Positions 25,888 through 55,016 of a stretch of 64,000 bases of DNA are shown here, one piece after another. Position numbers and translations under genes: made by a program. Where the stretch lies: NCBI GenBank assembly GCA_033030425.1, contig JAUFSD010000021.1:1116001-1180000 (forward strand), in the 5' to 3' direction. Each line of letters begins with the position of its first letter. The stretch's first letter is position 1. The stretch comes from Verpa conica. Lineage: Eukaryota > Ascomycota > Pezizomycetes > Pezizales > Morchellaceae. The notes under the pieces are model-generated. The model did no database searches and was not told the origin of the DNA. It saw only the letters and a list, made by a program, of their open reading frames with translations.

Positions 25888-27512
25888 ATGAATACAGCAT
25901 CAGATCCATCCCCACTTCTCAAGTTCAACTGTACCCCAGATCCTACATACTCTCCGAGCAAACATCTCACGAAAAATACACTTATGGATACCGAGGGCTT
26001 AAAAATTTGCTATCAAAGTTGGCCATATTCCTCTATGTTGACCCCCCCTTGAGAACTCTGTCGCTGAAGATTTACCTCCATCTCTCCCTTAGACTTCTGC
26101 GCTAGCCTCAAGTACATTCAGGATGGGGGAGGTGGATCTGTGCACGTCTACGAAAGTTTAGTGGCCGAGGTAAGTAGTCTATCCATCTGATCCCCTAGGT
26201 GCTAGTCAGGGCTTCCAAAGACATAGACCAACGCTGTATGTAGTTAAATAGTAGCTTCTTAAATGATCGTAAACGAAGATTTGAAGATACAAACAACACA
26301 ATATGCAGAGAGAACAATCGACTCAAGACGGAGGTGGACGGGCTTCAATCGAGAGTTTCGGCAATGAGGGAAGTGCAACAGCAAGCCAAAGACAAACAGA
26401 GCAGTGTGCTCTCATACCAGCAGTCCAACATGGGAGTGGGTGCATCGGGTTCGGGAGTCTCGGAAATGGAGGTTGATCACCACCACCAATCTGATATCCT
26501 CGAGAATTATGAAAATAAAATCTCGAAGCTCGAAAAATCATGCTCGGATCTCTGGTTAAAAAATGGTTGCCTCAGCGCGGAGCTAGAGGCACCAGCTAAT
26601 TACCTTGATGGTTTCGAAACAAGATACGCAGCGCTTGTGTTGTTAAACAATAGGCTCAAGAAAAAAGTGGAAGCGTTAAAGTCAAAGGTTTCAGTGATGA
26701 AGCGAGACCAGGAGCGGGGGCGCCAGCGGTATGATATTATCATTAAGGATCACGAAAACGAAATCGCAAGACTCCAGTCGTCAAACCAACAACTCCAGTC
26801 GTCAAACCAACAACTTCAGTCGTCAAACCAACAGCTTCAGTCATCAAACGGACATCTCCAGTCGTTAAACCAAGGTCTCCAGTCCTCAAACCAACAACTT
26901 CAGTCGTCAAACGGACATCTCCAGTCGTTAAACCAAAATCTCCAGTCGTTAAAAGAACAGCACGAGTCGTTAATCAACCAGCTCAAGTCTTACTCAAAGA
27001 GATTAGAGTGGGGGCGCCAGCGACAAGATAAAATCATTAAGGATCACGAAAACGAAATCACAATGTTGCGGGCGTCGGAAAAAAAACTCAACCAATGTGT
27101 CAAGAAGTTAGAGTTGGAGACTGGAAGTATAAAGGAGAATCACGAGCGGCAAGCTAGATTCATTAAAGACCACGAAAACAGATATCAAGTGCTCAAGTCG
27201 TCAAAAGACTTTCTCTACGAATATTCAAAGGAGTTGGAGCGGAATATTAAGGATATGGGGGGCAAAAACGGGGGTAGAAACGACAAGGCAAAAGAAACGC
27301 TCCAGAAGTGGCTCGAAAAGGAAAACGGAAAGCTTTCAGGCGAGTTAGAGAAAGCAGACTCGAGGATTTCAAATCTTCAGTTTTTAGTTGACCATAAAGT
27401 GAAAGAGTTGGGTGAACTGAAATCACATATTCTTACAGTGGCCACCACCGATGATCCGGAACCCACACACCGCCTGGATAGTGTTGCGGGTTTGAAGAGA
27501 AGGCGAACCTGA
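25888..27512 (+). CDS. Array gene 1: coiled-coil protein with basic tail
   Basis: Exons 25888-26017, 26093-26169 and 26244-27512; intron phases 1 and 0; 491 residues. The exon 3 boundary (..ATGTAG/TTAAAT) is set by matching the acceptors of the paralogs. Exon 1 is Pro/Ser-rich ending TEGLKICYQ; exon 2 holds FCASLKYIQ..VHVYESLVAE; exon 3 is a long coiled coil starting CRENNRLKTEVDGL. Residues about 245-308 are nine heptads of the LQSSNQQ type encoded by a 21-bp minisatellite. The C-terminus LKRRRT is basic. No lectin domain is present. No enzymatic motif is seen; the role is probably structural or multimerising. It is the most upstream member of the array and lies about 4.5 kb from the divergent STAND gene. 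Confidence 0.8.
26772..26960 (+). repeat. 21-bp coding minisatellite (nine heptads)
   Basis: Nine consecutive 21-bp units encode LQSSNQQ, LQSSNGH, LQSLNQG and related heptads inside exon 3 of gene 1. Units 1-4 are almost identical at the DNA level, and a GH-QG/QN three-unit pattern repeats. Each unit is exactly one coiled-coil heptad, so copy-number change lengthens the coil without breaking register. Confidence 0.9.
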
Positions 27513-28554
27513 ATAGTTAGTTTTTATGTGAGCTGTGGGGATGTGTACAAGTTAAGGATATTTACTGTGCATTTCATTGATTTTTTTCTGATGGTGTGTG
27601 GGCTTTTTCTTTGATTATTTACGGTATATCTATTTTTGTTTTACTGGGTACGGTAGTTTAATTTGTGTTTTTAACATTCGTGTTTATATTCTTTGCATCT
27701 ATGTTTATATTCTGAATATAATTTGAAACGTAGGGGGAAAGATAAATAGATGTAGTATTACACGAGTGAATGAATGAATTAATCATCAGTACATGGGTAT
27801 CACACGATATATTATACTTAGTATTTTAGTACGTTATATTGCTGTAGTAACTTTCGGCGCAGCATGCCTTTTACCTTAGCCTCTAGGGCTCACGCTGTAA
27901 ATGTATTTCAAACTAGATGTAACGTTGAAACATGTCTAGTACCGGGCCATAAATCACTAAAAATGGCTAAGATTACTGAGAGTGTAACTAGAACTACATA
28001 GATAGTACCTAACCATAAATAACCAACTTGTTATCTCAGCTAAAATAGCAATTACAGTACTGTAGACTCTAGGAGTAGTTGTAGGGTAAACCTTAGAAAT
28101 CACACTAAGCCTCTAAGTTTGTATGAAGTCTTGGCAATTTATAATTACAAATAAGTTCCGAAGCTACCAGTCTCGTGCGCGCCCATCCCCCACGACGCAG
28201 CTTCTTTAGTCTCAGATCCCCATCTTTGATATGTAATCTTTAGTAGTATACCTATCTTTCCTAATGTTCCTATAAACTGTGAAAGTTAATCATACTCAAT
28301 GTAATTGTATTTTTGTGGATAGAGTGGAATATAATCGCCCAGGGCAATGTATCTTAACTCAGGCTTCTAATACGCCAGTTACAGCCACAAGCAGCCACCT
28401 ACCAACAGCCACATCCCATTGGGTGCCTAACCACTTTCCACAGCTACCCCCGCCCTTGTTTTTTCTACTCCTTTTGATCCCTAATTACGACAATTACGCC
28501 GCAAATAATATAATCAAGGCCATATAGGACCTCAAAGCCGGTACATGTGTGACC
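27513..28554. other. Spacer between array genes 1 and 2
   Basis: 3' UTR-like AT-rich sequence, then the 5' flank of gene 2. The block GCCACC..CCAACAGCCAC..TGGGTGCCTAACCA (about 28380-28435) recurs upstream of gene 7 (53080-53130). Confidence 0.55.
28482..28527 (+). promoter_or_regulatory. TTACG-repeat block and TATA-like box of gene 2
   Basis: AATTACGACAATTACGCC (28482-28500) is followed by a CCATATAGG TATA-like sequence, about 30-70 bases before the start codon. The same arrangement precedes genes 3, 5 and 6. Confidence 0.55.
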
Positions 28555-29972
28555 ATGAGTCCACCCCCAGACGCCTCCCCGTCTGTACGGTCTACTACAA
28601 GCCCTGAATATACCCCGCCTGAAGATTCATTTATCAGTGCCAAGGACCTAGGATATTGTTATCAAGGTTATTTATCTTCCTCTCTTTTCTTCTCTACTAT
28701 ACTTGCTTTTCCCCCCCTTCGCACTTCCTTTGGGATTCTTTTGCTGAACCTTTATCTCATCTTTTTTTTCTTAGTCTTCCTCGGTAATCTCGAATACTTC
28801 CATGATAAGCCTAGCACCGTTTACGGATTATTAGTGACTAGTGTAAGCGGCTTCTATCTACCGAATATACTACAGCTATAGTTATGGAACTCCTAAGGAT
28901 ATATATATATCTAATACTACATTTTTAGATCAATGCTTGCGTGAAGGGTCGCATCGATACAGCACAGGCAGAGGTGACTAAGCTTAAATCAAAAATATCA
29001 GATATGGAGAAAGACAAAAAGAAGCAAGAGGAAAAGTACCAAAAGATGAAGAAAGACAAAGAGAAGCAAGCGGCAGAGCACCAAAAGACCAATACAGAGC
29101 TCGAAGAATTGCGTGGGAAACTCCAGGAAAATCAAGTGGCGCGGGAATCGGAGATGGACCTTGATACCAATGACGAGAGTTTGGGGGTTGGGTGCGAGGA
29201 GCCTTGTATACACCTAAGGCAGTACCACCAGCAGCAAGCCGGGATCCTACAGCGTTATCGAGCCAGTGATAAAACTCTGCGAGCGAAGCTTAGTGAAAGA
29301 TCGAGGATACTCAGATCAGTGTTTTCGGTGGTGAGGATGGGGATGGGACATCAAGCTGAAACCACCAAGCGGGACAGAATTAGAATCGGAATCGCCCTTT
29401 GGTTGTCGAATAGAAGGTTTAGGTCAGGGGTGAATGTGTTGAGGTTAAGGGTTTTAGAGCTAGAGTGGAGGAACCAGCAGCTAATCGATGCCCTTGAGAG
29501 TTACAAAATTGGGCAGCTCGAGTCGAACGCGCAGCCGGAGTCGGACGCGGAACCCGAGTCGAACATGGAACCCGAGAGTAAACAGCAAGCCTTTTCCTCT
29601 AAGGGTTCTAAAACCCAAGTGGCAACACTCAAATCGTTAGTCGAAAGTCTCGAAGAGGAGAAGTTAAAGGCAGAGCGCGAGCTCAGGAAAGAAGCCGATA
29701 TGCGTGAGGGCTCCGAAAATGAAGTTGTAAAGCTCAAGCTGTTAGTCTCGAAGCTAGGGGAGGACAATGAAAAGCAAGCCGCTGCTATTGAGGACAAGGA
29801 TCTTGAAATTGAGAATCTTCGTTTATCAGCTGAAAAATCCGAGGAGGAGGCCAATAGATCGAAATTGAAGCTACAGATTTTGAAAGACAGAGAATTAGCA
29901 TTCAGGTTGTCATACAGCGTACTCGAAGAAGACAATACTAGGGAAGACTCTAGGGATATTCTGGTAGCTTAA
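28555..29972 (+). CDS. Array gene 2: coiled-coil protein
   Basis: Exons 28555-28666, 28775-28842 and 28929-29972, phases 1 and 0, 407 residues. Exon 1: MSPPPDASPS..SFISAKDLGYCYQ; exon 2: a diverged FLGNLEYF..PSTVYGLLVTS; exon 3: a Lys/Glu coiled coil with KSKISDMEKDKKKQEEKYQK near its start. A Cys-containing motif GCEEPCIHLRQY (about residue 150) recurs in gene 3 as GCEQPCIHLSNY. Acidic pseudo-repeats QPESDAEPESN follow. It ends without a lectin domain; only a short lectin-like scrap (VIGTAY) follows the stop. An out-of-frame ATG lies 10 bases before the start (28545), also seen in genes 3 and 5. Function unknown. Confidence 0.75.
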
Positions 29973-30078
29973 GGGCATAAGTAACCCCCTTCCTCCCTCA
30001 GTTATAGGAACAGCATATCTTTTTTCTTTCTCTTTCTTCTTTCGCACTTAACTAGCTACAGAAGAACCTATTGCTTGT

Positions 30079-30210
30079 TGGGTATGAAATTTATGGCGGC
30101 GTTGGAGGGATTAGGAGACACTGACGCTTGGAATACATAGGGTAATTTCCTTAGCTTAGGCATATATAAATTTAGTATTTTCAGCTTATTCAAAATTTTC
30201 GAGATGGCCA
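30079..30210. repeat. 3'-flanking repeat of the array (gene 2 copy)
   Basis: TGGGTATGAAATTTATGGCG..GGGTAATTTCC..TAGTATTTTCAGCTTATTCA..TTTTCGAGATGG recurs in diverged form after gene 3 (32830-32965) and gene 4 (37055-37180), and more weakly after gene 6 (52540-52690). Gene duplication therefore included downstream flanks. Confidence 0.7.
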
Positions 30211-30784: not shown

Positions 30785-30830
30785 ATCAGTGAACCCCAGA
30801 CCGTACCCCATAGTCGGTACATGTGTAGAC

Positions 30831-32841
30831 ATGAGTCCGCCCAAACGTTCCTCTCCGTCCGTACAGTCTGGAAACACCACAGACCGTAAATACGACCCGA
30901 GCAGGCATATTATTGATGATTCTTTTATGAGCAAGGAGGAACTAATCAATTGCTACGATGGTTTATCTACCTTTCTCTACTTCCTCCTCCGTTATTATTA
31001 CATATTTTTATACTTCTACTAGGGTTCTGTTGCTGAGATTTTTGTCTTATCCCCTTAGGGTTCCGCGCTAGCCTTACTCTTATTAGTAGTAAACCTCAGA
31101 TTGTTTACGAATCACTAGTGGCCAATGTAAGTAGTTTCTATCTATCTGATCTCTCGGGGCTTACTATTAGGCAGCTTCTAACGCTACATATAGTTCAGTC
31201 TCACCGTTAAAGCTCGCGAAGATGCACACAAAGCCTCCGAAAACCGACTCAAGGCAGAACTCGAGAAACTTAAATCGAAAGTTTCAGGAATGGAGAAGGA
31301 TAAAAAGAAGCAAGAAGAGGAGCTGGAGAGCCATAAAGAAAAGAACGCAGAACTCCAGGCGGAAAACAAGAAACTCCGAAAGGATCTAGAGGTATCGGAG
31401 TCGGAGGTCCCACACGCTTCATAGGTTCCGGAGGATTCGGAAATGGATATTGACACTCAGGAGAGTTTCAAAAGTGGGTGCGAACAGCCTTGTATACACC
31501 TAAGCAATTATCAACAGCAAGCCCAAGTGCTAGAGCATTATGAAAAGGAGATCGGAGTTCTTCGGTCATCGAATGAACAGCTCAATAACCAACTGGGGGT
31601 ATTCACGACAGAGATTACAAGGATCCAGTCATTAATCAAACAGCTCGAGTCGAATGCGGAACATGAGCGCAAACAGCAAGACGTTGCCCTTGAGGGTTCC
31701 AAAAATGAAGCTAAAAACCTCTGGTCAAGAGTCGAAAAGCTCGAGGAGGAGCTAGCGACATTTAGATCGAGTGTAGAGCTCGAACGAAAACAGCAAGCCC
31801 GCACGGCCAAGAAGAGCGGGAACGAACTCACAAAGCTTCAGCTGGCAAATAGCAAGCTGAAGGAAGGAAAAATGAAGATCTTGGCGTCAAATAACCAGCT
31901 CATAGGAGGGATAGGGATCCTGAAGTCGAAAGTTTCGGCCTTGGAACTCGAGCGCAAACAGCAAGCCGCTACCCTTCAGAATTTCGAAGCACTCCGGCTG
32001 TCGATCAAAAAGCTCGCGGAGGATGTGGAGCTCGGACGAAAACAGCTAGTTGACACTCTTAAGCGGAGCGAAAGCGAAGCTGCAAAGATTCAGTCGTCAA
32101 ACATCAACCTGGGGGTAGAAAGTGTGGAGTATTTGTCGTCAAACTGCGAGGTCGGAAAAAAGCTAGAGGAAATGGAATCAAAAATTAAAGAGGCGAAAGA
32201 GAAGGCCAATACCCCCGAGAAGGAAACCCCAACGCCCATGTCGTCAATCAAAAAACTCGAGGACTATCTTGTAATAGCGAGATCCCAGTTAAATCTCCAA
32301 ATAGCCACACTTAAGAGCCTGGAAAATGAAACTGTAACACTCCAATCATCGAATATCATGCTCAAAGCCGACAATAAAACACTCCTGTCCTTAAACGACG
32401 AACTCAGAGATCAGAAATCGGGCATTAAGGATCTGAAAGATGAAGATGCATTACTGCAGACGCTAAATAAGGCTCTCAGAGCAGAAAATGAAACGCTCTC
32501 GTCATTAAATAGCAAGCTTAAAGCAGAGTTGGGGCCACTCCTAGGAACGTTCGCTTGCTGTTCACTCCATTGCGGCAACGGGGGGGAAAGCGCCTCAATC
32601 GCGAAATCAACGCTTCAAGGCACTAGTAGCAGAGGCAAAAGAACTAGGGGTGACGGTTAGAGATCCAAGCGTAGCCCCAGCACAAGAAAAAAACGAACCA
32701 ACGGGATCGAAATAAACGGCCCTTTCAACCTACAAATCTCACTACAGACCTCCGATATTACGATTCCTGAGATTACCGGGCATGTTTGCATAAGGAATTG
32801 CCCTCCGTTCAGTCATAGGTGCTACATTTTGGGTGTGAAGT
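30831..32841 (+). pseudogene. Array gene 3: coiled-coil protein split by in-frame TAG, decayed lectin tail
   Basis: Exons 30831-30960, 31059-31126 and 31194 onward keep the family splice pattern. Exon 1: MSPPKRSSPSVQS..SFMSKEELINCYD; exon 2: FRASLTLI..PQIVYESLVAN; exon 3: VKAREDAHKASENRLKAELE then coil. An in-frame TAG at 31422-31424 interrupts the frame after 142 residues; downstream the same frame is open to a TAG at 32658-32660 (tail SSRGKRTRGDG). Beyond that second TAG, still in frame, NGIEINGPFNLQISLQTSDI and following codons (32700-32790) match the last lectin repeat of gene 6, with the frame running to a TAG at 32839-32841. It is either a pseudogene, two short genes, or less likely an amber readthrough gene. 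The 31443-32660 part alone could still encode a 405-residue coiled coil. Confidence 0.7.
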
Positions 32842-33761
32842 TTATGGTGGCGTTGTAGTGAGTAGGAACTAGGCTGAGATATTGAGCGTTGTGCTGAATA
32901 GGGTGATTGGCTTGAGTATACACATGTTTTAGTATTTTCAGTTTATTCAAAGTTTTCAAGGTAGTCACGAAGAGGGTATATTCTATCTAGAGTCAACGTT
33001 TTTTGTCTCTATAGCTTGATTCAGCGTCAGTGTCTAAATATTCCCTTGTTAGCCCTCACCCACTACCTAAACCTAGGTTCAAGCCTACTAAAACGACACC
33101 GGCACTTCTAAAATTATATCCTCAAGCTGCGGTATCCCTACCCCTGTCCCTAAAAACAATTCCGGAATCTAGTCCGACAACCCAAAAGTGCCAAGCTGTA
33201 ATTCATAAAATCACTTGTAGGTACCACTTTTAGGCTCCTTGGGTACCTTCAACCCCACCTCTCTTGTGGCAGTTATCTACTCAGGGCTTTAGAGCCTTGG
33301 TTTTTTTTGAGAATCATATTACGTGCTGTGGTGGAGGTCTGTTTCTTTTGTTTACTTCATCTCAATATGGATTTTAAGCTCTACGTAATATCAGCCGGCG
33401 TTGTATAGCGGACTTATCGTCGCTACCAAGAGGTATCCGTAACCGACGCATCTAAGTTAGAGGAAAGCCGAATAGCCTAACTACATGTAAGCTATACCGA
33501 AGCTTCTAGTTGAGAGAGGATCTAGTAGTATATTTCGATATCACTAGTTAGCTGAAAGAATAAACAGCGGAAAAGAAAACTAATGACTGCTGTTTCTTAT
33601 TTCCACTAGTAGTGTTGGATTTTTTTATTTATATCTTGCATCTTGCCAGACCTTTAGTATTTTGAATTGCCTATGGAGCATTGTAGCTACACAAGTTGCA
33701 TTCACTGTGTCACTAGCCTCATGTCATCTCTTATCATATAGAGATTCTCTCTTCATATATT

Positions 33762-33826
33762 GTTACATGTCGCTATAAGAAACGAAATCGGTTGCATACT
33801 TGACGTTCCATATAGCGAGGTGTAAC
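33762..33826. mobile_element. Short hairpin element, copy 1 of a tandem pair
   Basis: Imperfect inverted ends GTTACATGTCGCTATAAG and TATAGCGAGGTGTAAC enclose about 30 bases. It lies inside a diverged direct repeat of roughly 135 bp that also repeats GTGTCACTAGCCT..TCTCTTATCAT. Confidence 0.6.
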
Positions 33827-33893
33827 CGTATTTCTAACTTTGGTCACTCGTTTGCCCAGTGTGTCACTAGCCTTATAGTATCTCTTATCATTT

Positions 33894-33961
33894 GTCACAC
33901 CAGCTCGCTATAAGTGACAAAATCGGCTAGACACTTGGCGTTTCGTATAGCGAGGTGTAAC
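33894..33961. mobile_element. Short hairpin element, copy 2 of a tandem pair
   Basis: Inverted ends GTCACACCAGCTCGCTATAA and TATAGCGAGGTGTAAC, with the same interior order as copy 1 (AAATCGGNT..ACTTG.CGTT). Probably a miniature palindromic element duplicated in tandem. Confidence 0.6.
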
Positions 33962-34140
33962 TGTTAATCGTCCGATTGCTCGATGTGTCGCATGCCATAG
34001 CCACAACTACTACCGTCGACGTCGCTTGTACATACTAAAAATTATATAAATCTCAAATCTCATGATGTTCCCCCCACCACCACTCTGCTAAGAGGGTTCC
34101 CCCCCGTTTGAACTAACCATAGTAGCAACGGGTTAATAAT

Positions 34141-36876
34141 GTAAAAACAAGGTTCTGGAAGATATCTGGAAGTACCGAGATCAGAGGCCTCGCAAGCTTC
34201 GTAGTCCCCCGAAAACAGAGATTGAGCACCAGCAAGTTAATACTTATGAGAATTACAAAAGCGGAGTACGGCCTTTTTTTTTTTTTAAAGAATTACGTTG
34301 ATCAGAAACTGACTTGATTGAAAGAAGTGTGAGCTATATAGGAGTTTGAATAACGTCCCAAAATGTAAGGAAGAATAGTTACTTGGTTAATACAGTACCG
34401 TGTGCGCGTGACTTATTAGTGGACGAATCCGAAACCACACCAAAAACGCCCAGAATCAGCCATATTGCAACCTCTTTTACCAGTGCGCCACTAAAGGGAT
34501 TATTATATAATTCTGAATAATGGAAGCTAACTGTATGGAGAGTCGCTTTATGGGATTTTATGAAAAGATCTACCTGTTATAATATGGATTCTAGTGGTTC
34601 TTGTGGGGTGATTTCAAAAAAAGTGCCAAGACCAGAGATTGGTATAGGTCTTGGCATTTTCGATCAAATTCACAACTACCCTACATCTAACCCATACCAC
34701 TACTCTCATGAGTTACAAATAGGGTTCACACCTAGAATATGGAGCTCTCACCAGTATATCTAGCTTCTCTGATCAAATTGTAAAATCTGAAGTATAAATG
34801 CATGCTCTATAACAGCATGAAATTACTGAATTTTGGTTGATTTTAGTGTGCATCTACTGATCGATATAGGTCACTGTACTGTAGCTTAAATGCTCATCCG
34901 ATACCATACTGTGTAACCAGTGGAAATATCCGTCGGAGTAATACACTATCCGAAAGGAAATGTCTATCTGTATAGGAGGGTAACACTTGGCGAATGTATC
35001 AGTATATTTCAGGGGGGAATGGAGGCGCGGGAGGGGCTTGAGCACTAAGAAGACTGAACCCGCAAAGCTTCAAATGTCGAATATGTTCAAGTCAAGGATA
35101 AAATCATTGAAATCAAAGGTTTTAGACCTGGATCGGGGGAACCGACAGCAAGTCTATACACTTAAGGATTCTGAAAATGAGGTCGCAAAGCTCCAGTCAG
35201 AAATCGAACGACTCGGATCAGATGCGGAATTCGAGCGCAAACAGCAAGCCGTCACTCTTGAGGATTCCAAAAATGAAGCCGCGGAGCTACGGTCTTTGAC
35301 CGAACAGCTTGAGAAAGAGCTAGGGGCGCTGAAACTTGAACGGAAACAGCAAGACGACACCCTTGAGAAGAGCAAAAAAGATACCGCAGAGGTTCGGTCG
35401 TCAATCAAACAGCTCGAGTCGGATGCGGAACTTGAGCGCAAGCGCCAAGCTGCTACTCTTGAGAGTTCGAAAAGCGAAGTGGCAGCACTTCGGTTGTTGA
35501 TGGAACAGGTCAAGGGAGAGAAGTCGGAAGTGGAGTTCGAGTGCAAACAGCAAGCTGCTATGCTTGAGAGTTCAAAAAGCGAAGTGGCAACACTCCGGTT
35601 GTTAATTGAGCAGATCAAGGGAGAGAAATCGAGAGCGGAGCTCGAGTGCAAACAGCAAGCTGCTATCCTTGAAAGTTCGAAAAGCGAAGTGACAACACTC
35701 CGGTTGTTAATCGAACATATCAAGGAAGAGAGGTCGAAGGCGGAGCTCGAGTGCAAACAGCAAGCCACCACTATTGAGAATTATGAGAATGAGGCCGTAG
35801 AACTCCGGTTATTAGTCGAACAGCTCAAGGGGAAGCTAGGGACACTAGAGTCGGAGGTGGAACTCGAGCGCAAACAGCAAGCCGCCACTATTGAGAACTC
35901 TGAGAGTGAGACCGCAGAACTCCGGTTATTAGTTGAACAGCTCAAGGGGGAGTTAGGGGCACTAGAGTCAGAGGCGGAACTCGAGCGCAAACAGCAAGCT
36001 ACTATTCTTGAGGATTTGAACAGCAAAGTGACAACAATCCAGTTGTTGGTCGAACAGGTCAATGGAGAGAAGTCAAAGGCGGAGCTCGAGTGCAAACAGC
36101 AAGCCGTTATCATTGAGAATTTCGAAAGTGAAGCCACAAAGTTCCGGTCATTAGTCGAACAGCTTAAGGGGGAGGTAGCGGCACTGGAATTGAAGGCGGA
36201 ACTCGAGCACAAACAGCAAGCCGCCATTATTGAGAATTCCGAAAGTGAAGCCACAAAGCTCCGGTCATTAGTCGAACAGCTCAAGGGGGAGTTAGAGGCA
36301 CTGGAATCGAAGGCGGAACTCGAGCGCAAACAGCAAGCCGCTACCCTTGAGAATTCAAAAACCGAAGCCGCAAAGTACCGGTCATTAGGCGAACAGCTTA
36401 AGGTGGAGCTAAAAGAAACGAGGTCGAGGGTGAAGGGTTTGGAGAGCGGAGCCGTAGCCCTCCGGTTGTCATACAAAATGCTCGAAGCACAGAATAAATC
36501 ACTCTCGTTGGCAAACAACCAGATCGAGCGCCAGAAGGAAGTAGAGATGAAGAAATTGGAAGATGAAAAGGAGGGGTTGAAGGAAGAAATGGATGGGTTG
36601 AAAGGCGAACTGGTGACTTTGAAGAAAATAGCTAGGACACTGCGGTTGTCGGGTGACAAGCCCAAAGCAGACAATGTAACGCTCTCGTTAGTAAAAAACC
36701 CGCTGAAAGAAGGGGCGGCCAAACAGAAAGTCAACACCCCCGAGAGTTGTGGATGCAAAGGAAAAGCGCTCCTACCGCGGGGCGAACGGATTAAGGCAGT
36801 TATGGCAGAGATAGAAGAACTGAGGTTGAGGGTTATATTTAAAGGTGAAACCCAGGCACCAGGGGCAAGAGAATAG
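34141..36876 (+). pseudogene. Array gene 4: long coiled coil lacking its 5' exons
   Basis: A relic at 34141-34280 aligns with the gene 3 exon around its TAG (SEASQAS-stop, TAG at 34202-34204). It is followed by about 760 bases of unrelated sequence beginning in a T-run. The coil frame then runs to 36876, with its first ATG at 35074. It is made of repeats such as ELECKQQAAMLESSKSEVATL (about 35 residues) and ELERKQQAATIENSESETAE (about 39 residues), giving a heptad-patterned rod of over 500 residues. Lectin-like codons follow the stop in another frame (36873-36990: INDPFNPKISLETSGITAS). No exon 1 or exon 2 was found, so it is probably non-functional unless a new start is used at 35074, which would give 600 residues. 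Confidence 0.7.
35440..36400 (+). repeat. Tandem 105/117-bp coding repeats in gene 4
   Basis: Repeats alternate between GAGCTCGAGTGCAAACAGCA and GAACTCGAGCGCAAACAGCA starts, each followed by A(A)CTNGAGAAT/GTTCGAAAGCGAA and an LRLL(V/I)EQ(L/I)KGE coding segment. Period is about 105 bp (35 residues, five heptads) in the first half and about 117 bp in the second. High similarity between neighbours shows expansion by unequal exchange. Confidence 0.85.
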
Positions 36877-43700: not shown

Positions 43701-43705
43701 GTTTT
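43701..43705. repeat. Target-site duplication GTTTT, left copy
   Basis: GTTTT directly precedes the LTR; the same five bases follow the other LTR at 50151-50155. Five bases is the usual Ty1/Copia duplication. Confidence 0.9.
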
Positions 43706-44029
43706 TGAAAAACAATAGACTCAGTGTATACTAAAGATAGATATAACTAAAGAACAAACTTGATTGATACCTAAAGAAAGACGCAGGAGAAGCCTGCTTA
43801 TATAGTTACAAATCTGCTAACATAGAAAACATTCCGTAATCCCAATACAAAGTAAAAGCCAATCCGTTACCATACAATTCTTCCGATGCTCGGATAGAAT
43901 TTCCTTCCGTCGGTTATACTATTCCCCCGCCTGGTTACCCTGCCGGACCACCCGGGATTCTATTCCTCCGGTGTTGCCACACCCCGCATTCGCCACACTT
44001 AACTTCACAGAGTGTCACTCATTCCAACA
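43706..44029 (-). repeat. Copia 3' LTR
   Basis: 324 bp; on the + strand it starts TGAAAAACAATAGAC and ends CATTCCAACA, giving the canonical TG..CA ends. About 98% identical to the other LTR. Confidence 0.95.
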
Positions 44030-44038
44030 CCCTCCCTT
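44030..44038 (-). other. Copia polypurine tract
   Basis: AAGGGAGGG on the - strand lies directly against the 3' LTR, the expected place for the plus-strand primer. Confidence 0.8.
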
Positions 44039-45539
44039 GCTCAAGACAGTTAAGTTGTTTAAGAAAAGTTACATGTTTTAAACGTCCCAATCCTTTAGTA
44101 AATAAATCCGCTGCATTGTCCGCAGTTGGTACATATGAAAGTAAAAAATCCCCCGCTAAATACCTTTCTCGAATATAATGAAAATGTGTTTCAATGTGTT
44201 TGGATCGTCAATGAAAAACTGGATTCCTGGTAAGAGCTAGTGACCCGGTGTTATCACCAAATAGTTCGTAGATGCGTTTTTGTTTTGTCCAGAGTGCTAA
44301 TTCGTCGAGTCCTCTCTTCAGCCACACCATCTGCCTGGCAGCCTCCGATAATGCCATGTATTCCGCTTCGGTTGACGAGATGGCTACTGATTTCTGTTTC
44401 TCGGTTTTCCACGTGATCAGGCAGTCGTTAAGTACAAAACAATTGCCAGAGAAGGATCTCCGGGAGTCCATGTCGGAGGCGTGACTTGCATCCGCGAATC
44501 CTTTTAGCGACATGTCCTGACTAACCACCCGTGGGTACACTAGTGTTTGATGGATGGTTCCTCGCAGATACCGGAGTACTCTTTGTAGCGCTGTTGTATG
44601 TTCGGGTCCTGGATTAGACGAGAATTGTGACAGGAAGGTTACCGCAAACGCTATATCTGGTCAGGTGCCTAGTGCAGCATACATCAACGATCCCACTATT
44701 GCTTGATAGTGTGCTATCTCTGAGTTGGTAGCTGTTCCTGGTTCTGACGCTACTAATCCATGATTTTCGAAGGAAGTGGTGACCGTTCGGCATTCCATCA
44801 TATCAAATCGTTCGAGGACTTGTTGAATGTAGGCTGACTGGCTAAGCGCTATTTGCTGTTCGGAAACCGTTACTTTTATCCCAACTATCCAGTTCACTTT
44901 TCCTCCGTCTGTCATTCGAAAGGTTTTTGCTAGGTGTGAGGCTACTCGCTTGTCTTCTGTTGTGTCGCAGAAGAAGGTTCCTAGGTCGTCGACAAAGGCA
45001 GCTATGATTAGAGTTCCGTTTTTATTTATGAACACGCTTGGGTCGAAGGAGCTTCGTCTTAGTCCTAAACTTTCGAGTTCTTTGAATAGCACAGCGTGCC
45101 ATTCTCGAGGTGACTGTTTTAGTCCGTAGAGGGTTTTCTGAAGTTTCAGTACTTGTCCCCCCTCTACTTCGTACCCTAGTGGTTGTTCAACGTATACCTC
45201 TTCTTTCAGTTTTCCATTTAGGAAGGCGTTTTTAACGTCGCTTTGTCGTGTGTCCCATTTTGCTGAATGGGAAGCCATGATTGCAAATAGCATTCTTAGG
45301 GATTCGTACCGAAACACCGGGGAAAAAGTTTCTTCGTAGTCGACTCCGTATATCTGGGAAAAACCCTTGGCCACAAACCGTGCCTTGTACCGAGTAACCT
45401 CCCCGTCTGGTCCCAGTTTCTGGGTATACACCCACCTACTTTTGACCACTTTTTTCGGTTGAGGGGGTCTCGGGACTACCTCCCACACTTCATTGAGGAT
45501 TAGTGCCTCATATTCCTCCTTCATTGCTTCTTTCCATTT

Positions 45540-45545
45540 TACTTG
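45540..45545. repeat. 6-bp duplication flanking the nested insertion, left copy
   Basis: TACTTG here and at 46801-46806; removing the insertion with one copy restores the Gag-Pol frame (GKDQV/KWKEAM). Confidence 0.85.
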
Positions 45546-46800
45546 TGACGACTTTACCATCGTCATGACTAGTCTCAAGTACCTCTCCATATAGAGACAC
45601 CTAAGGATCTCCCTTGAGGCATAGGACTAGCTATCCTATTCCGGTCAATAGATACTAAGGAAAGTCATTACTATGATAGCCCGATCCCTAAGCGAGCTGG
45701 CGAGCCCCTAGGACGGAGCGAAGCTCACCGTCGTCGGTATGCGACAGAGACCAGAGTAATGCGTCTGTAGCTTATAGCTACGGGAGATACTAGCGCAATG
45801 AGACTGAAGCAGTTACCTCCATGAACAGAGTTAAGCTCCTGTTCTTCTAGGAGGAATAATAACAGCTTCGCTGATGGCCAATCTTATGGGAGGCCGAGAG
45901 CCATGAAACGAGAGCAAAGCTATGCTTAGTAGTTAGGGCCGCCAGCAAAAATAATAATTAACCTGGCGGCGTCACGAATCGAACCATACGGGGCTATGCC
46001 TTGTGCGTCGCCCTAAGGTCCTTATGGATCAAGATTACCTCTCCGCCACGCTCCCAGGTTGGACTAGGAACGTGGGAAAGGAATCTAAGCAACGGCAGGA
46101 ATCACCAGTGGGTTACCCTACCTAGGGGACTCTGTGTTTTCTAACACCCCCGAGGCGCCCCACTGTGCCACCCGCCGTTTGCAGAGGGGGCCCCCCTGAG
46201 TTGCTGATTCCCTAACAAAAAGACAAGTTTTGGACCCCAAAAATAACCCCAAAACCGTCAGGAAAATTCGTCCAACCGAACCAAACTCGGAGGGTATATG
46301 GGGGACAGTGCTGCGAATCCATAGGTGCAATCGGATTTGAAATCGGACCATTTTAGCAATAGTTACAGAGTTTTTAGTAACCAACGCTTTTTAGTCGCTA
46401 GTCTATCGACCCCGCTAGTTCTTAGGGGCGCTCTAGACTCAGTTGATTTCCAAGCGCGGAGGAATTGTTCCCCCGCTCCTTGGCAGCCTGCTCGCCTTCA
46501 AAATCATAGCTTAAACCCGTCCTTCCCCCAGGACAATCATTATTGCTAGTCAACGAACAACCGTTGTTCAGAGACCCTCATACTCTTTGCTAAAGACGTT
46601 TGTCTTCCCCTAGGAAGCAGAGCCTTTTAAAGTCTTTAGTTATCTATCCATTAAATCCTTATTCCTGTTTGCCTAGGAGCTGTCGACCTTCCGTGTTGAC
46701 GAGCGGTTCTAAGCCTCGCTGCTGAAGCTTCTCGTCAGAAAGGAAGGTTGTTGGTTTTTTTTGGTACGGCAGTACTCCCCTGGGAGTGCCCCCGTTACAG
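45546..46800 (-). mobile_element. Nested 1255-bp insertion of unknown class inside Copia Pol
   Basis: The edges are defined by the TACTTG duplication and by exact continuity of the Copia reading frame across it. On the - strand it begins CTGTAACGGGGGCACTCCCA and ends CGATGGTAAAGTCGTCA. No long terminal inverted or direct repeats were found and no convincing protein is encoded. It contains a tRNA-like segment with A and B boxes (45965-46055, -), so a large tRNA-derived SINE or other non-autonomous retroelement is possible. A TGTAAC..CA-bounded solo LTR is an alternative. Confidence 0.8.
45965..46055 (-). other. Degenerate tRNA-like region (pol III A and B boxes)
   Basis: On the - strand: GGGAGCG, then A box TGGCGGAGAGG (46048-46038), B box GGTTCGATTC (45985-45976), then CGCCGCC. 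Acceptor arms pair at five of seven positions, but the T-stem pairs poorly and no acceptable anticodon arm was found. The length resembles Leu/Ser tRNAs with a long variable arm. Best read as a tRNA-derived promoter or pseudogene. Confidence 0.4.
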
Positions 46801-49728
46801 TACTTGGTCTTTGCCATTTATGGCTTCTTTGAAGGTTGTGGGACAGGAGGTAATCGTCAAAAGTTCTTCCACTAACCGGATAGGTTTCTTGACTTCCCTT
46901 TGTCCTTTTCTCCTGACTAGGGGGATGTCGGCGTCTTTTGGTTTGACCCATTCGTTCGGGTGACTTGGTGCGCTTGGCGGTTCCGATCTAAGTGGCCATC
47001 TCGGAGGAGTGGAGGGTCCTTGTCCCATATCTTCCATTTCCTCATCTTCAAAGGTCATAGTTATCTCCCCTTCTTCTTCTCCTTTGTCGCTTTCAGAGGA
47101 TTCGTCTGACGTTTCTTGTTTGTCTCTGAAGTCTCCAGGGAAGTTGACGGGTTTTGGTGGTGATGGTGGCAATTCTTTTTCGGGGGACTGAGGAGAATTT
47201 GCTAATTCCTTTTCTTCTTCCCTTGATTTGGTAGCTTCCTTCTCGTCTTCCGAGTCTGATGATGACTCGGATGAGGAGGAGGATGAGGAGTATGAGGAGG
47301 AAGAATCTGTTGAAGAAAATATTTGGCTGGGAAAAAAGCTGCTTGCGGCTTCCTTGGTTTTTACCGCGGGTTTTTCGAACCGAACGTCTCTGCTTCGAAC
47401 GATCTGTTTTCTTGTCGGTAAGTAGACCCTGTACTCTTGTTGGCTTTCTCCAAAGCCGCAAACTTTGCCTTCTTCTGCTCTCGGGGATAACTTAGTTCCT
47501 GGCTTTCTTGCTTCTGGTGGGCAGAAGACATAGGCTGTTTCCCCAAAGTAGCGGAGGTGTCCTATTGATGGTTTGCGTTTGAAGTATGCTTCAAAGGGGG
47601 TTTGCTTTTCCAGTGCTGTATGTGGTAGGCGATTTTTAACGTGGGTTAACATTGACACTGCCTCCCCCCACAAGCTTGGTGGTAATCCTGAGTTGATTCC
47701 TGCGGTTCGTACTAGATCCTGTATGGTCCGGTTGAACCTTTCAGCTACCCCGTTGGATTCATGGGAGTAGGGGACGATTGTTTCGTGTTTGATGCCCTTG
47801 GAACTGAAAATCTCTTTTAGGGTGACATTTACGTACTCTCCCCCATTATCTGTTCGAAACCTTTGTACCCTTAGGCCTGTTTGTGTCTCTACTGCTTGGA
47901 TGTATTTCTTAACTGCTTCCGGTGCATCACTTTTGTTTTTGAGTAGGACAACCACAGTGAACCGTGAGAAATCGTCAATTAGGGACATGAAGTAGTGATA
48001 CCCCCCTGGTGCCTGGGTTGACTGTTTTCCGCTAAGGTCCGAGTGAATGAGTTCAAGTATTCTGGTTGTCCTGGACACGCTGGGAATTCGTGGTAATTTG
48101 GTGGCTTTTCCCAACTGACAAGCTGTGCATCCTTCAAATTTGTCGGGTAAGAGTTGGGGGTCCTGTACCATTTTCTTTACTTTCCTCAGTCCGTCTGATG
48201 GTAGGTGCCCAAGTCGTTGGTGCCAAAGTGAAGGTTGACTTATTGTTAACGCTGTTGCTGTAATTTTGTCGGCCTGATCCAGAGTGTAGAGACGACTTTG
48301 TTCATTCAGGGTCATTTTCCCTTGAGTTACTCCGTCCTTCAAGATACATATCTCCTTGCCTTTTCCTTCCATAGTAAATCCTTTTTCAGCTAGCCTTCGC
48401 CACGATATGAGGTTGGTGTCTCCGAGTTTGGGTACGTGAAGTACTTTGGTTAAGGTTATTGGCATTAGAGATCCTTTGATGTGTACTGTGCTATTTCCGG
48501 AGATTTCGATGTTGTGTCCCGCTGCATTTACCATTCCTTTTTGCGCCGTTACCGGTCCGAAAGTTCTTCCTGACATATGGTCGGTTGCTCCTGTATCGAA
48601 GATCCATTGGTCTCTTCTTCCAGTGGCTGTTGTAAGGCAGTGATTGTTTTGCGGGTTCATCATCATGGGGTCGGCGGGTCTCTCCCAGTTCATATCTGTC
48701 CACTCGTCGGCGTATTCTGGTGCACTTACTTTGGGAGAGAATTCGGGATACTCGGTGTCGACAAAGCACTGATCTATGAAGGAACTGTAGTGGGTGGTGG
48801 CAACCCAGCATGCAACCGTGATTTCGCTTACGTTTGCTGAGTTTTGTTTCGCTTCCTTTTTGGCCTTTTTCTTTTTGTTGCACTCTTTGGCCGTGTGGCT
48901 TTTGTAGTAGTCGCCATTTTTCTTGCAAAAAGAGCATTCCTTGGTTGGGTCCCTGACTGGTGGTTTCCCTCCTGCCGGTTTTTGGCCATTTTTGACGTTG
49001 AAGGATCCTGCGTCTGGGCCTGATATTTCTCGATTTTGAGCAATCGCCATTAGTTTGTCGTGTATCTCGGCAAAGGTAATCGACTCTTTGCTGAGAACAT
49101 TTTCGACGACGTTGGCAAGACTTTCGTGTCTGAGGGTTTGTAGGAGGAAGTTCTTTTTGGACATGTTGGATTTGGTCATGTTTTTGAGGTGCCAGGCGAA
49201 GTCATCCGCATCTTCTTTCTGAGCTCCTGCGCATTGCTGTACAACGGTTCGCCATATGTTGGCGAAGGTGGTGAGGTGGTCTTTTAGCGAGTTTTCGGGT
49301 GAGTACTGGAGACTCGTGAGATTGGCAAACGTCATGAAAAGTGTGGTAACGGTTTGAAGATCGAACTGTTCCTCTAGTGCTTTCCACAACACTGCTGGAT
49401 TCCCGTCTTGGAGAATCACATCTTTGACTTCTTCGTCTATGTTATTGAGGATGAAGGATACTGCCCAGTTGGTCTTATCTTCCCACTTCCTATGAGCCTT
49501 TTTGTAGGCCTTCTGTTTCGCTAGGTGTTCCGTCGGAGATGTTTCGGAGGTGGAGTCGTGTTCTCCTGGGTCGACTGGTTCTTTGGCAATGCCTTTGACG
49601 AGATCGATTGTGCGATAGTATTTGAGTGCGACTTCGGCTTCGAACCTCCATTTGCGATAGTTATCCTTGCCTGTGAGTTTTTTGGCAAGGGTCGGGATGC
49701 GACTGGGGCTGCTTTCGTTGTCGGACAT
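46795..49728 (-). pseudogene. Copia Gag, protease and integrase portion
   Basis: Starts at the ATG 49728 (MSDNESSPSRIPTLAKKLTG). Gag includes a nucleic-acid-binding Cys/His region CSFCKKNGDYYKSHTAKEC, the protease WIFDTGATDHMSGRT (DTGA), and integrase zinc-binding HQRLGHLPSDGLRK..CTACQLGK. The catalytic core is IHSDLSGK..RFRTDNGGEYVN..HESNGVAERFNRTIQDL, i.e. the D, D and E residues. The YFGETAYVFCPPEARKPGTK region is typical of Copia integrase, and a Ser/Glu-rich linker follows. The frame is intact until the nested insertion, where CTG TAA from the insert ends it. No frameshift separates Gag from Pol. Confidence 0.93.
46801..46806. repeat. 6-bp duplication flanking the nested insertion, right copy
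   Basis: TACTTG, identical to 45540-45545. Confidence 0.85.
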
Positions 49729-49813
49729 CGTTTCGAAGTTTTTCAAACGGTATGGATCAAAGAGATGTTAATGTGCTGATTGTTTATGCGTAGTAGAAGC
49801 TGTTTTATCTACC

Positions 49814-49826
49814 CGGGCTCATAACC
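49814..49826 (-). other. Copia primer-binding site, half-tRNA-iMet type
   Basis: Directly inside the 5' LTR the + strand reads CGGGCTCATAACC, identical over GGGCTCATAACC to the anticodon arm of eukaryotic initiator tRNA-Met. Drosophila copia and yeast Ty5 prime from a cleaved initiator tRNA half ending there, whereas most elements use the tRNA 3' end. Confidence 0.8.
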
Positions 49827-50150
49827 TAAAAAACAATAGACTAAGTGTATACTAAAGATAGATATAACTAAAGAACAAACTTGATTGATACCTAAAGAAA
49901 GACGCAGGAGAAGCCTGCTTATATAGTTACAAATCCGCTAACATAGAAAACATTCCGTAATCCCAATACAAAGTAAAAGCCAATCCGTTATCATACAATT
50001 CTTCCGATGCTCGGATAGAATTTCCTTCCGTCGGTTATACTATTCCCCCGCCTGGTTACCCTGCCGGACTACCCGGGATTCTATTCCTCCGGTGTTGCCA
50101 CACCCCGCATTTGCCACACTTAACTTCACAGAGTGTCACTCATTCCAACA
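49827..50150 (-). repeat. Copia 5' LTR
   Basis: 324 bp; ends CATTCCAACA on the + strand. Its other end reads TAAAAAACAATAG, the TG terminus having become TA by a G-to-A change. Expected to hold the element promoter. Confidence 0.95.
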
Positions 50151-50155
50151 GTTTT
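50151..50155. repeat. Target-site duplication GTTTT, right copy
   Basis: Matches 43701-43705; gene 6 coding sequence resumes at 50156. Confidence 0.9.
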
Positions 50156-50820
50156 CGGATATGAAGTTGGAGTATCACAAACAGACTAAAACCCTCGAGG
50201 ACTACGAAAACGATAAAAAATCGCTCCAGTTAAGATACGACCAGACTACGAAAGAGCTAGGAGAGTCGATATCGGTAGTTACAGCGATGGAGCTGGAGCT
50301 CCAGCATAGATCCGAAACTCTTAAGAATTGCCGGCTGCTAAAAGACCAGCTTAATAGAGAGCTGGAAGGATTGAAATCGAAGGTTTCGGAGGTGGAGAAG
50401 GAGAACCAGCAGCACGTCGATAGTATCGGGAGGCACGAAGGTAGAACCGAAAGGCTCAAGTCGTTAAATACCAAGCTCGAGAACGAGAACGAAGATCTCC
50501 GGTCATCAAAAAAACAGCTTGAGGAGGGCCTGAGAGCATTGAAACAGACTGTTTTAGATGTGGAGCTGGAGAATAATCTTCAAGTCAAAAGTCTTGAAAA
50601 TTATAAAAAAGAAAAGAAAAATTCTACTACAGAGCTGAAGGCATTGAGATTGATGGTTTCAGACCTAGAAAAAGAGCGGCAACAAAAAGACGACGACCTT
50701 AAGAGTTCCGGGGAAGAAGTGGTAACGCTCCAGTCTTTAAAAGAAGAGCTGGAGAAGGAACTGGGAGTACTCAAACCGAAAGTTTCAAAAATGGAACGAG
50801 AGAGCAAGCAGCAAACCGAT

Positions 50821-51324
50821 GCCCTTAAGAATTCCACAGCAGAAGTGATAACACTCCGGTCTTCAAAGGAAAAGTTAGAGAAGGAACTAGGAGCACTCAA
50901 ACCGAAGTTTTCAATACTGGAACGAGAGAGTCAGCAGCGAGTCAATTCCCTTAAGGTTTATATGGGGGCAGTGACAAGGCTCCAGACTTCAAAAAAACAG
51001 CTTGAGAAAGAACTGGAGGAACTCAAACCGAAGGTTTTAAAACTGGAACAGGAGAACCAGCAGCAAACAGATGCCCTTAAGAATTCCACAGCAAAAGTGA
51101 TAGCACTCCGGTCTTCAAAGGAAAAGTTAGAGAAGGAACTAGGAGCACTCAAACCGAAGTTTTCAATACTGGAACGAGAGAGTCAGCAGCGAGTCAATTC
51201 CCTTAAGGTTTATAAGGGGGCAGTGACAAGGCTCCAGTCTTCAAAAGAACAGCTCGAGAAAGAACTGGAGGAACTCAAACCGAAGGTTTTAAAACTGGAA
51301 CAGGAGAACCAGCAACAGCAAGCC
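50821..51324 (+). repeat. 252-bp tandem duplication in the gene 6 coil
   Basis: Two adjacent 252-bp units (50821-51072 and 51073-51324) are nearly identical over most of their length; both encode KNSTA(E/K)VI(T/A)LRSSKEK..FSILERESQQRVNSLKVY. 252 bp is 84 residues, or 12 heptads, so the coil register is kept. The low divergence implies a recent event compared with gene duplication. Confidence 0.85.
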
Positions 51325-52509
51325 GATTCCAAGGAAGAAGCGACAAAGCTCCGGTCATCTATCACAAAGCTCGAGGAGGAGCTAAGGGTACTTAGGCTGG
51401 AGATTTCGAGACTAGAGATGAAGACCAAACAGCAAGCCAGCGCCTTAGAGAGCTGCAAAAGCGGGAGAGAAACACTCCAGTCGCCAAACGACAGGCTTAA
51501 GGCAGAGCTGGAAGTACAGGACTTAACTACCTTGATAAAAGCTGTTACCATTGAGGCCTATAATCCGAACTGGGCTCTGGGATCGAACCCTTCTATTGGA
51601 TTATTTCACACTAGCGAATTCGAACTGGACTATGCCACAGATGCTTCACACACTAGTGGGATCGAGCCGGTCTCTGCCACAGAGGATTCCGACACCAGTG
51701 GAGTAGAACTATTAGATTATCCCCGGGTATCGTATTTGAAGGCGGTATCTTTTATCAATGATTACCCTGAACCTCTAGCCCTCCCTTTAGGGCTCACCTC
51801 ACTACATACCGAGGAAAAAGACTTTTTTCCAGATATCGGTGACTTTGAAATGGATTTATCCTCCTATGCTCAGAATGTTCGAAGTAGCGGTTTTCAGATC
51901 AATATTGATGTCTCTCAGAGCATATGCAATGCTGGCTGTACATGGCTAGAGATAAATCCCAAGGACCCAGACTTTCAATGCGGCAGCTTCAGCACAGTAG
52001 ACCAGCTGTATCGGTGGGATAGACGTTGGACAGAGCATTGGATCACCTTTCCCCGGCGGTACACTAAGCCACCGCAGGTGGTTGTTTGGCTAAAGCGATT
52101 TGCTTTCGACTCTCATAATTGGCGTCTATCTACGTATGCAGTCAACGTAACTGCCACGGGTTTTCTAATCGGTGTTGAATCTCCTATGGACTCTAAGCTG
52201 AGCTTTGCCGAGGTGTCATGGGTTTCTTGCACGGCAGATAAACCCGGAGTTTTCAGTAGCAGCATTCTGACACCAAGCATTATTACCCCTAGGCATAAGG
52301 GATATGTAAAATTTAAAGAGGGTACTTTTGTTGCCCCTCCTCGCGTCATAATGGCAATCAACCGAATTGAGATAACCAAACCTTTCGACGTGGAAATCTC
52401 ATTGAAGACTTACGATATTACGGTGTCTGGGATGGCTTGGCATATTGATGGCATAGAAGGTTCTTTCCCTTGTGTAGTCATAGGAGCCAGCTTTTTTGCT
52501 CTTAATTAG

Positions 52510-53227: not shown

Positions 53228-55016
53228 ATGGGTCCAAACCGTTCACCCTTAGACCCGCCCCCGCCTCCGCCTCCTAGCTATACTCTAGATCCTCAATATG
53301 TCCCGGCCCCGCATCTCACGAGTGATTCATTTCTGAGTAACGAGGACCTCATCCACTACTATAAAGGTTTAGTTTTACCTCTGTTTCTTCTCCGCTTCCT
53401 TTCCCCTTAGAACTGTATTGCTAATACTTTACCCTACTCTCAGACTTCTATGCTAGCCTCAAGTACATCCAAGCTGCACCCGAGCTTGTTTACGAGCGCG
53501 TAGTGGCAAATGTAAGTATTTTCTATACGCATCTCCCGGAGTGTACTCTCAAGGACATGACCAACGCTATGCATAGTTCAACACTGCCGTAAAGGCGGCC
53601 CGTGAACGCGACCCCGGAGATGCACCTATCGCCACCACTGGAGCTTGCAAAGGCGGGGCGGACGATCAGCTTAAGGCAGAGATAGTTCAACTTAAATCAA
53701 CGATTTCAGCAATGCAGCTAGATCGCCAACAGCAAGTCGAGATCCTTGAGAATTACAAGAAAGAATACATAACTCTTCGGTCATCAGAGGACAGGCTCAA
53801 GGCAGGGGTGAAAGTACTAGGATCTAAGATTTCGGCAATGGGGCTGGAGCGCCAGCAGCAGCTTGACACCCTTCAGAAATACCAGAGCGAGAATGAAATA
53901 CTCCAGTCATCAAATGACAGTCTCAACGTAGAGCTAGAATCGCTGAAATCTAAGATTGCAGCGGTAGTGCTTGAAAACCAGCAACAAGCCAACATACTTA
54001 GGAATTGTAGAAACGAAAATGCTTCACTTCAGTCATCAAACCACAGTCTCGGGGCAGAGGTAAAAGCGTTGAAGCTGGCTATCTCGGCGCAAGCTATCGA
54101 CCTTAATGGCTGCAATTATCAGAAGGGAACCCCAAAGTCACTCAACAGCAAATCCAAGAAAGAGATAGTGTATCTAAGACCCGAGGTTGAAGAAACAGAC
54201 AATCCTATCATCGGAATCTTCCACCATAACGAAGTAAAACCAAGGGACGGTTCATCCTCCTCACAGAAGATGTTGATCTCTTTCACCAAGACATACCCTG
54301 CGCCTCCAGCCCTAGCTTTAGGGATCACATCACTACACAGTAGGGGGAACGATGGCACGCTCAAACTTAGACGCCAAAATAACATAGACATAACCTCCTA
54401 CGCCTTTGATATTCGGAGAGACGGCTTCGAGGTCAATATCATCTCAATCACCCACGGCGCCAGCTGCACATGGCTAGAGATAAAGCCGAACGATCTAGAC
54501 TTCCAATATAGCAGTTTCATTACAGAGAACAGACATGGGAAAGAACGTTGGGTCACGTTTCCGCAGCCTTACACTAAGCCACCACAAGTAGTTCTCTGGT
54601 TAAAGGGCTTCAGTTCTGACTCGGATAATTGGCGCCTACATACCTATGCAACTGAAATATCTACCGTTGGCTTCAAGATCCACATCGAGCCTTGGGGAGG
54701 CTCTACATTTAAATATGCCGTGGTGTCGTGGGTTGCTTTTACGGCAGATAAGCCAGGCGTTTTTAGTGGCACTGTCCAGACAAGCCCCTGTAAATCCCAG
54801 AATAGGAATGAGGGACGCGTAAGTTTTGAAGAAACTTTTTCTGCCCCTCCCCGCGTCATAATGGCAATAAATAAAATAGATATAAAAAGCTCCCAGAGTC
54901 TGAATGTTTCATTGAAGACTTCCGATATCACAGATTCTGGGATGACCTGGCATGTTGACGGGATGTCAGATACCTTTCCTAATTCAATAGGTGCTTCGTT
55001 CATTGCCCTTAGTTAG
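53228..55016 (+). CDS. Array gene 7: intact coiled-coil H-type lectin protein
   Basis: Exons 53228-53366, 53444-53511 and 53577-55016, phases 1 and 0, 548 residues. Exon 1: MGPNRSPLDPPPPPPPSYTL..SFLSNEDLIHYYK; exon 2: FYASLKYIQAAPELVYERVVAN; exon 3: short coil (about residues 90-245, LERQQQLDTLQKYQSENEIL type), linker, then three H-type lectin repeats at about 300-385, 392-475 and 481-548. Diagnostic segments are WVTFPQPYTKPPQVVLWLKG, WRLHTYATEISTVGFKI, SWVAFTADKPGVFSG and FSAPPRVIMAINKIDI. No signal peptide is seen, so it is probably cytosolic, like other fungal lectins. It is the only uninterrupted lectin-bearing member of the array. The coil probably multimerises the lectin heads; ligand and role are unknown. 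Confidence 0.9.

Follow-up and report, generated by a model that had tools for sequence, protein, structure and literature searches.

What is the seven-gene tandem array that spans positions 25888-55016 of the stretch of Verpa conica DNA analysed here, and how does a locus belonging to a lectin family come to consist mostly of long coiled-coil genes that carry no lectin domain? The stretch, called the window below, is 64,000 nucleotides (nt) long and is taken from contig C21 (G000:C21:1116001-1180000; GenBank JAUFSD010000021.1) of a genome of 45.8 Mb in 25 contigs; coordinates given without a contig or locus name are positions in it. The seven related genes, g1 to g7, all lie on the forward strand, and that they form a real tandem array is confirmed. 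The answer we favour is that the array may be one branch of a genome-wide family of leaderless, coil-bearing lectins, a branch that has been losing its lectin heads.

Six copies (g1, g2, g3, g5, g6 and g7) have three predicted exons, a first of 112-139 nt, a second of 68 or 77 nt and a long third, which would be joined across introns of 65-108 nt whose phases are 1 and 0 in all six. The first, g1 (25888-27512; exons 25888-26017, 26093-26169 and 26244-27512), has a coil with 21-nt, or heptad, repeats and no lectin; g2 (28555-29972; exons 28555-28666, 28775-28842 and 28929-29972) likewise has a coil and no lectin; and g3 (30831-32660; exons 30831-30960, 31059-31126 and 31194-32660) has a coil with an in-frame stop ending at 31424. 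Next comes g4 (34984-36876), a 5'-truncated copy of exon 3 only, with a 630-amino-acid frame and coil units of 105 and 117 nt, upstream of which the search for an exon-2 relic gave nothing better than 12 aligned bases. It is followed by g5 (38135-39426; exons 38135-38258, 38325-38392 and 38482-39426), with a coil and no lectin. The sixth gene lies in two parts, the 5' part at 42566-43705 (exons 42566-42692 and 42770-42846, with exon 3 running from 42928 into a transposable element) and the 3' part at 50151-52509, with 126-nt, six-heptad coil units and an H_lectin head. Last is g7 (53228-55016; exons 53228-53366, 53444-53511 and 53577-55016), which has a coil and three H_lectin domains and is open throughout. 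Three-exon models are thus open in four of the seven copies (g1, g2, g5 and g7). Coil DNA and stretches of both the 5' and the 3' flank match among copies beyond chance in DNA comparison (28484-28572 and 42495-42583, for example, are 79% identical in the 5' flank), and exon 2 can be aligned even with relatives on other contigs. The sequence-only reading, which had described six three-exon copies and one truncated copy with related exons 1 and 2 and common flanking repeats, is borne out in these respects. Three of the headless copies end in basic stretches that look like nuclear targeting signals: GLKRRRT in g1 (27471-27512), GKRTRGDG in g3 (32615-32660) and RAKRKRIEK in g5 (39385-39426).

The heads themselves are few. 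In a Pfam scan of eight array frames, the two halves of g6 being analysed as separate pieces, and of one N-terminal module, H_lectin (PF09458) exceeded its curated cut-off of 24 only in g6 (87.5 bits) and g7 (141.4 bits), and not in the frames of g1, g2, g3, g4 or g5, so that five of the seven copies are headless today. Two stretches of the g6 head pass in Pfam and the family model covers its whole three-repeat region, while a profile built from 32 homologous rows extends over the whole head of both genes. Just past the stops of g4 and g3 this profile gave E values of 0.36 and 1.7, no better than stray matches elsewhere. The relics found there are nevertheless firm, because they come from direct DNA comparison and not from profile matches: a third-lectin-repeat relic lies 3' of g3 at 32696-32786 on the forward strand (70% identical to g6 52356-52446, E 2e-7) and another 3' of g4 at 36897-36961, also forward (75% to g6, E 1.8e-8, with 36915-36959 80% identical to g7, E 8e-7). 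The 3' flank of g2, at 30053-30115, is 72% identical to the DNA directly following the stop of g6 (E 2.6e-4). These remnants show that g3 and g4 formerly bore a lectin head, which makes at least four copies, with g6 and g7, that have or had one; g2 very likely did too. The earlier description of C-terminal modules that differ among the copies therefore stands for the basic tails and the lectin repeats, and needs amending in that Pfam finds H_lectin in g6 and g7 alone and that the lectin remnants of g3 and g4 are third-repeat relics lying beyond the stops.

In a predicted model of g7, a 143-residue helix leads to a head in which a single chain forms three H-lectin domains. The modelled domain is a six-strand sandwich like that of Helix agglutinin and fits the agglutinins of H. 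aspersa and H. pomatia (HAA/HPA) at 1.4-1.5 A over 86-87 residues; discoidin II was the one Foldseek match at E <= 0.001. The fold alignment, A3, took in 31 of the 56 homologues described below. PCSK9 ranked above the Helix agglutinins by Z in the fold comparison, with identity of about 7-9% in the leading rows, and given that low identity we read the match as a common three-fold arrangement and not as kinship.

The array is far from alone in the genome, where 81 H_lectin matches group into 32 loci. A protein search with exon 2 found 21 places, a lower bound since it missed all but g3 and g7 among the six copies in the window; of the 19 places outside the window, 18 are immediately upstream of H_lectin loci, and the remaining one, on contig C15, is the start of a gene with a long coil and a decayed head. 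The N-terminal module made of exons 1 and 2 is thus present at no fewer than 20 of the 32 H_lectin loci, g6 and g7 included. An early pattern search had given six matches, five of them here, as if the module were particular to the array; the exons of the other loci and the protein search overturned that idea, and the module is genome-wide. Its consensus, of about 50 residues, is YxPAPYLxxxSxLSAxQLVxxFxDFYxSLxYISxAPELVFERLVANLN. In none of the 16 members scanned did a Pfam match go beyond E 0.089, and every family so matched came up with a single member. Candidate relatives in PDB reached E 0.00022 and were judged chance, the two best, a designed protein and a leucine-rich repeat protein, covering only 11 profile positions. 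Our alignment of the module, A1, combines g7 with 15 relatives, and the remaining five copies in the window entered only the exon-2 and codon-position comparisons; with the C15 gene added, 16 of the 19 outside-window module loci are aligned and L019, L024 and L029 left out.

Twenty-seven of the 32 H_lectin loci are no more than 250 kb from a contig end, where 27% would be expected (p 2.5e-11), and 17 of 22 do so when loci are collapsed to clusters (p 1.5e-6). A subtelomeric position is likely but unproven, because none of the 12 contig ends that were read carries a TTAGGG array. Beyond this genome a profile search found 56 homologues, among which three H_lectin domains are common; those of them that are named come from fungi, with one bacterial exception. 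In homologues P0001-P0004 a similar exon-3 motif precedes the H_lectin domains, either at the very start or further along, and P0015 is at most 47% identical to the loci of this genome compared with it (tblastn). Searches with g7 itself found less: the whole of its exon 3 gave at least one homologue, from candidates limited to 7998, and residues 225-479 alone gave none.

Do the heads that remain still look able to bind sugar? Three alignment columns, which we take to be Arg63, Trp83 and Tyr89 of the N-acetylgalactosamine (GalNAc) site of Helix agglutinin, read DSC/RPS/EIV in the three repeats of g6 and D-H/RWK/NMN in those of g7. The Arg-Trp-Tyr set is therefore incomplete in every repeat of both genes, and on this ground the balance tips away from sugar recognition by members of the array, which we do not regard as supported. 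Elsewhere in the family the set can be intact: L005 has RWY in all three repeats, and six of the 17 module genes scored have the full set in at least one. One such gene, L009 (C21:1181694-1182695), is on the opposite strand about 11 kb beyond g7 and has two full sets. In a tree of 28 genome rows of at least 170 residues (from 39 match rows) and 14 of the 56 homologues, L009 is sister (support 99/94) to a clade (95/88) of eight members, namely L026, L027, g6, g7, L030, L024 and two L014 genes, with the qualification that the bootstrap is not fully settled, that L027 and L030 are long branches and that the g6-g7 pair itself has only 92/66. None of the eight retains a full site set. By this tree the array belongs to one lineage within the family.

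The explanation we favour joins these observations as follows. Local duplication would have produced the tandem array from a single fast-evolving lineage within a genome-wide family of fungal lectins that lack a leader. A standard member of the family would consist of the conserved module of exons 1 and 2, a coiled coil at the start of exon 3 and a three-domain H-type head in one chain, the head resembling in its arrangement a Helix agglutinin trimer made covalent. Chains would multimerise through the coil, possibly helped by the module, and intact members would thereby display many heads able to bind sugar; such members would serve in defence as cytosolic lectins set free once the cell is broken open or consumed. 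In the array lineage the coil would have lengthened in coil-compatible steps while the head lost its sugar-site residues, after which the heads themselves were lost. Cytoplasmic lectins acting on the gut glycans of predators are an established fungal defence class (PMC10512399). As expected of that class, hydropathy indicated no secretion signal in any of the six spliced models, that is, no hydrophobic leader in the first 40 residues and no membrane helix, with g3 and g6 represented by partial models and with no dedicated signal-peptide predictor applied. We regard the explanation as a whole as evenly poised between right and wrong; the cellular location, the multimerisation, the defence role and the sugar binding of intact members are inferred. 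That the headless forms serve as coil scaffolds or as partner subunits for head-bearing paralogues is the role we think likeliest for them, but a more tentative proposal, one we would sooner doubt than believe. A further variant, that the headless coils are a paralogue-made control layer which would co-assemble with head-bearing lectins encoded elsewhere and set the number of heads or poison assembly, we think unlikely. Were it true, losing heads again and again would be how the family supplies itself with regulators, and the basic tails of g1, g3 and g5 could send some headless forms to the nucleus.

How well does this explanation fit the state of the genes? Within exon 3 of g6 lies a 6.4-kb Ty1/copia long terminal repeat (LTR) retrotransposon (43706-50150, reverse strand) whose LTRs are identical at 317 of 322 positions (98.4%), whose 5-nt target duplication GTTTT stands at 43701 and 50151, and which matches gag, integrase and reverse transcriptase, its reading frames being separate pieces at 46795-49767, 44661-45626 and 44208-44660. 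Positions 42566-52509 are accordingly one gene split by the element. The exon-3 frame is open on both sides, with an offset across the element of 0 mod 3, so that it was most likely open when the element inserted. In the coils, all 14 within-gene spacings of coil-unit family D2 (of 18, four between-gene spacings being excluded) are multiples of 21 nt. Family D1 has 13 spacings, and the nine of them that fall inside g4 give a remainder of 0 or 12 on division by 21, which makes each a whole number of heptads with or without a stutter of four residues. All 23 therefore keep the frame and the heptad or stutter register, although the distinct spacings are few (105, 126, 168 and 651; 105, 117 and 201) and the cases hence not independent. 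Heptad coverage was above the shuffle mean in all eight pieces.

Exon 2 differs at first, second and third codon positions by 0.387/0.375/0.492 in the six window copies as against 0.295/0.206/0.555 in the 16 relatives, a pattern that in the relatives is typical of a coding exon under selection; their exon 1 gives 0.418/0.277/0.628. Where the sequence-only reading saw a fast-evolving recognition locus, the fast evolution is upheld by these exon-2 values and by the loss of heads, whereas the recognition is not, given the incomplete sites of g6 and g7. The ratio of nonsynonymous to synonymous change (dN/dS) was 0.36 between the g6 and g7 heads, 0.11-0.90 among the g4 coil units (45 pairs, all below 1), 0.41-0.76 among those of g6 (6 pairs) and 0.24-0.83 among N-terminal regions (15 pairs); the highest of the last is near neutral and synonymous sites are partly saturated in these comparisons, the first of several points that weigh against our explanation. 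Three copies, g3, g4 and g6, are damaged, and DNA comparisons of the 3' ends revealed no trace of a former head at g1 or g5. A 3.5-residue periodicity beat all 300 shuffles in six of the eight pieces and did not do so in g2 or g7, and an 18-nt tandem repeat in g2 (29519-29576), in a Pro/Glu/Ser-rich stretch of the coil exon, is out of heptad register. Coil length correlates with retained site residues (Spearman -0.59, p 0.012) across 17 module genes that are not independent, a set that excludes rows under 150 residues, L035 and any locus absent from the exon-2 list, such as L024. The two are only loosely tied, because genes outside the clade also lack the full site: both L012 genes, L015 and L017, together with the non-module L007, L013, L020 and L028. 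Finally, almost every one of the 22 copies examined from the array and its relatives has a weak donor at intron 1, with GT followed by a pyrimidine in most and GC in one relative, while the intron 2 donor is mostly GTAAG; regulated splicing at the weak donor is possible, and the C15 relative has a canonical GTAAGT in its place.

The alternative that survives these data best is a dying gene cluster, in which relaxed and failing paralogues are functionless today and remain open only because coil codons seldom yield stops. The g3 stop, the missing exons 1 and 2 of g4, the transposon in g6 and the five headless copies all suit it, as do the long frames that are also open on the opposite strand of the coils and the nearly equal codon-position differences that the six window copies show in the core of exon 1 (0.396/0.348/0.375). 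It fits less well with four open three-exon models, with 23 coil spacings that hold their register, with dN/dS below 1 for the g6 and g7 heads and for every g4 unit pair, and with a g6 frame that is the same and open on either side of the element. On balance we consider it doubtful, while taking it seriously.

Some neighbours of the array bear on a second alternative. At 18369-20574, on the reverse strand, lies a STAND/NLR gene of the fungal type, NACHT-like (NPHP3_N) and with ankyrin repeats; it occupies two frames and includes, at 18530-19049, roughly five repeats of 102 nt. Just past the window (L009 3765-8260, reverse strand) a protein-kinase-like gene and a long ankyrin gene stand beside the lectin L009, the N-terminus of the former presumably resembling a HeLo-type domain. 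Between g3 and g4 there are two diverged 91-nt direct repeats, 73% alike (33739-33964). At 61619-63999, on the forward strand, a frame with a Glutamine-synthetase domain follows one without a Pfam match, an arrangement and sequence reminiscent of FluG-type proteins.

This second alternative is an allorecognition or immune-receptor locus, in which the proteins with coil and lectin parts would serve as variable sensors or decoys, as at fungal STAND/NLR loci. The tandem, fast-evolving layout, the position of both lectin genes of the array within 200 kb of a contig end, the NACHT-like, kinase and ankyrin genes nearby and the existence of a BTB-H_lectin fusion in this genome and elsewhere are consistent with it. 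No NACHT, NB-ARC or other signalling domain exceeded its curated cut-off in the eight array frames, however, and neither NACHT nor NB-ARC was found in the one N-terminal module scanned with them. The site residues, moreover, have been lost rather than shown to be diversified. We consider this alternative improbable.

Exported multivalent agglutinins, working outside the cell as collectins do, are still harder to credit. The collectin plan of a coil-trimerised stalk with a three-fold lectin head is indeed that of the family studied here, and stem and coiled-coil regions are reported to multimerise C-type lectins (PMC12355970). The likeness is one of working only: the Pfam scan found no C-type lectin or collagen domain, and the six models, having neither leader nor membrane helix by hydropathy, would need an unconventional route out of the cell. 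Barely credible is the notion that exons 1 and 2 are not part of the genes, with exon 3 translated alone or the long frames not genes at all, since the weak intron-1 donors and the calling of homologue P0001 as starting at the exon-3 motif are opposed by an excess of third-position change in the exon-1 and exon-2 codons of the 16 relatives, by the agreeing intron phases and by the canonical donor of the C15 relative.

Returning to the head-losing lectin lineage, how much of its design has been described before? PF09458 unites g6 and g7 with Helix pomatia and H. aspersa agglutinin and the C-terminal domain of discoidins, which the modelled domain matches in fold, with the difference that here three domains stand in one chain behind a long coil, that the site residues of g6 and g7 are incomplete and that five of seven copies have no domain at all. 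The same three-domain head occurs in fungal triple H_lectin proteins, either stand-alone (about 279 amino acids) or behind a zinc-protease domain (about 530-540 amino acids), whereas here the partner is the new module and coil instead of a protease, and loss of the head is seen. It occurs once more in a BTB-H_lectin fusion, where the BTB domain takes the place of module and coil. In this genome that fusion, of one BTB and three H_lectin domains, is at L011 (G000:C4) 3153-4865, and P0011 from elsewhere is 59% identical to it. Nematode-trapping Orbiliomycetes also have H-type lectins (PMC3924618; PMC8227253), four genes in Arthrobotrys oligospora (PMC3924618) compared with 32 loci here, and are described there in passages that mention no coil or N-terminal module. 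The second of these papers puts H-type lectins in 30% of surveyed fungal genomes and states, in 2021, that they had never been isolated from fungi (PMC8227253). Within the titles and abstract openings of the open-licence literature on H-type lectins or PF09458 in fungi, coiled-coil proteins, Morchella lectins and Pezizomycetes, we found no report of this design. The earlier impression that no fungal system of this kind has been described can thus be kept for the design as a whole and must be given up in part, as triple H_lectin proteins of fungi are common among the 56 homologues.

The finding adds a large fungal H-type lectin family whose N-terminal module matches nothing in Pfam and whose loci are enriched towards contig ends. 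Within it several stages in the loss of the head survive next to one another in the array, which offers a single locus at which both the rebuilding of a lectin family into coil proteins and selection on coil length may be tested.

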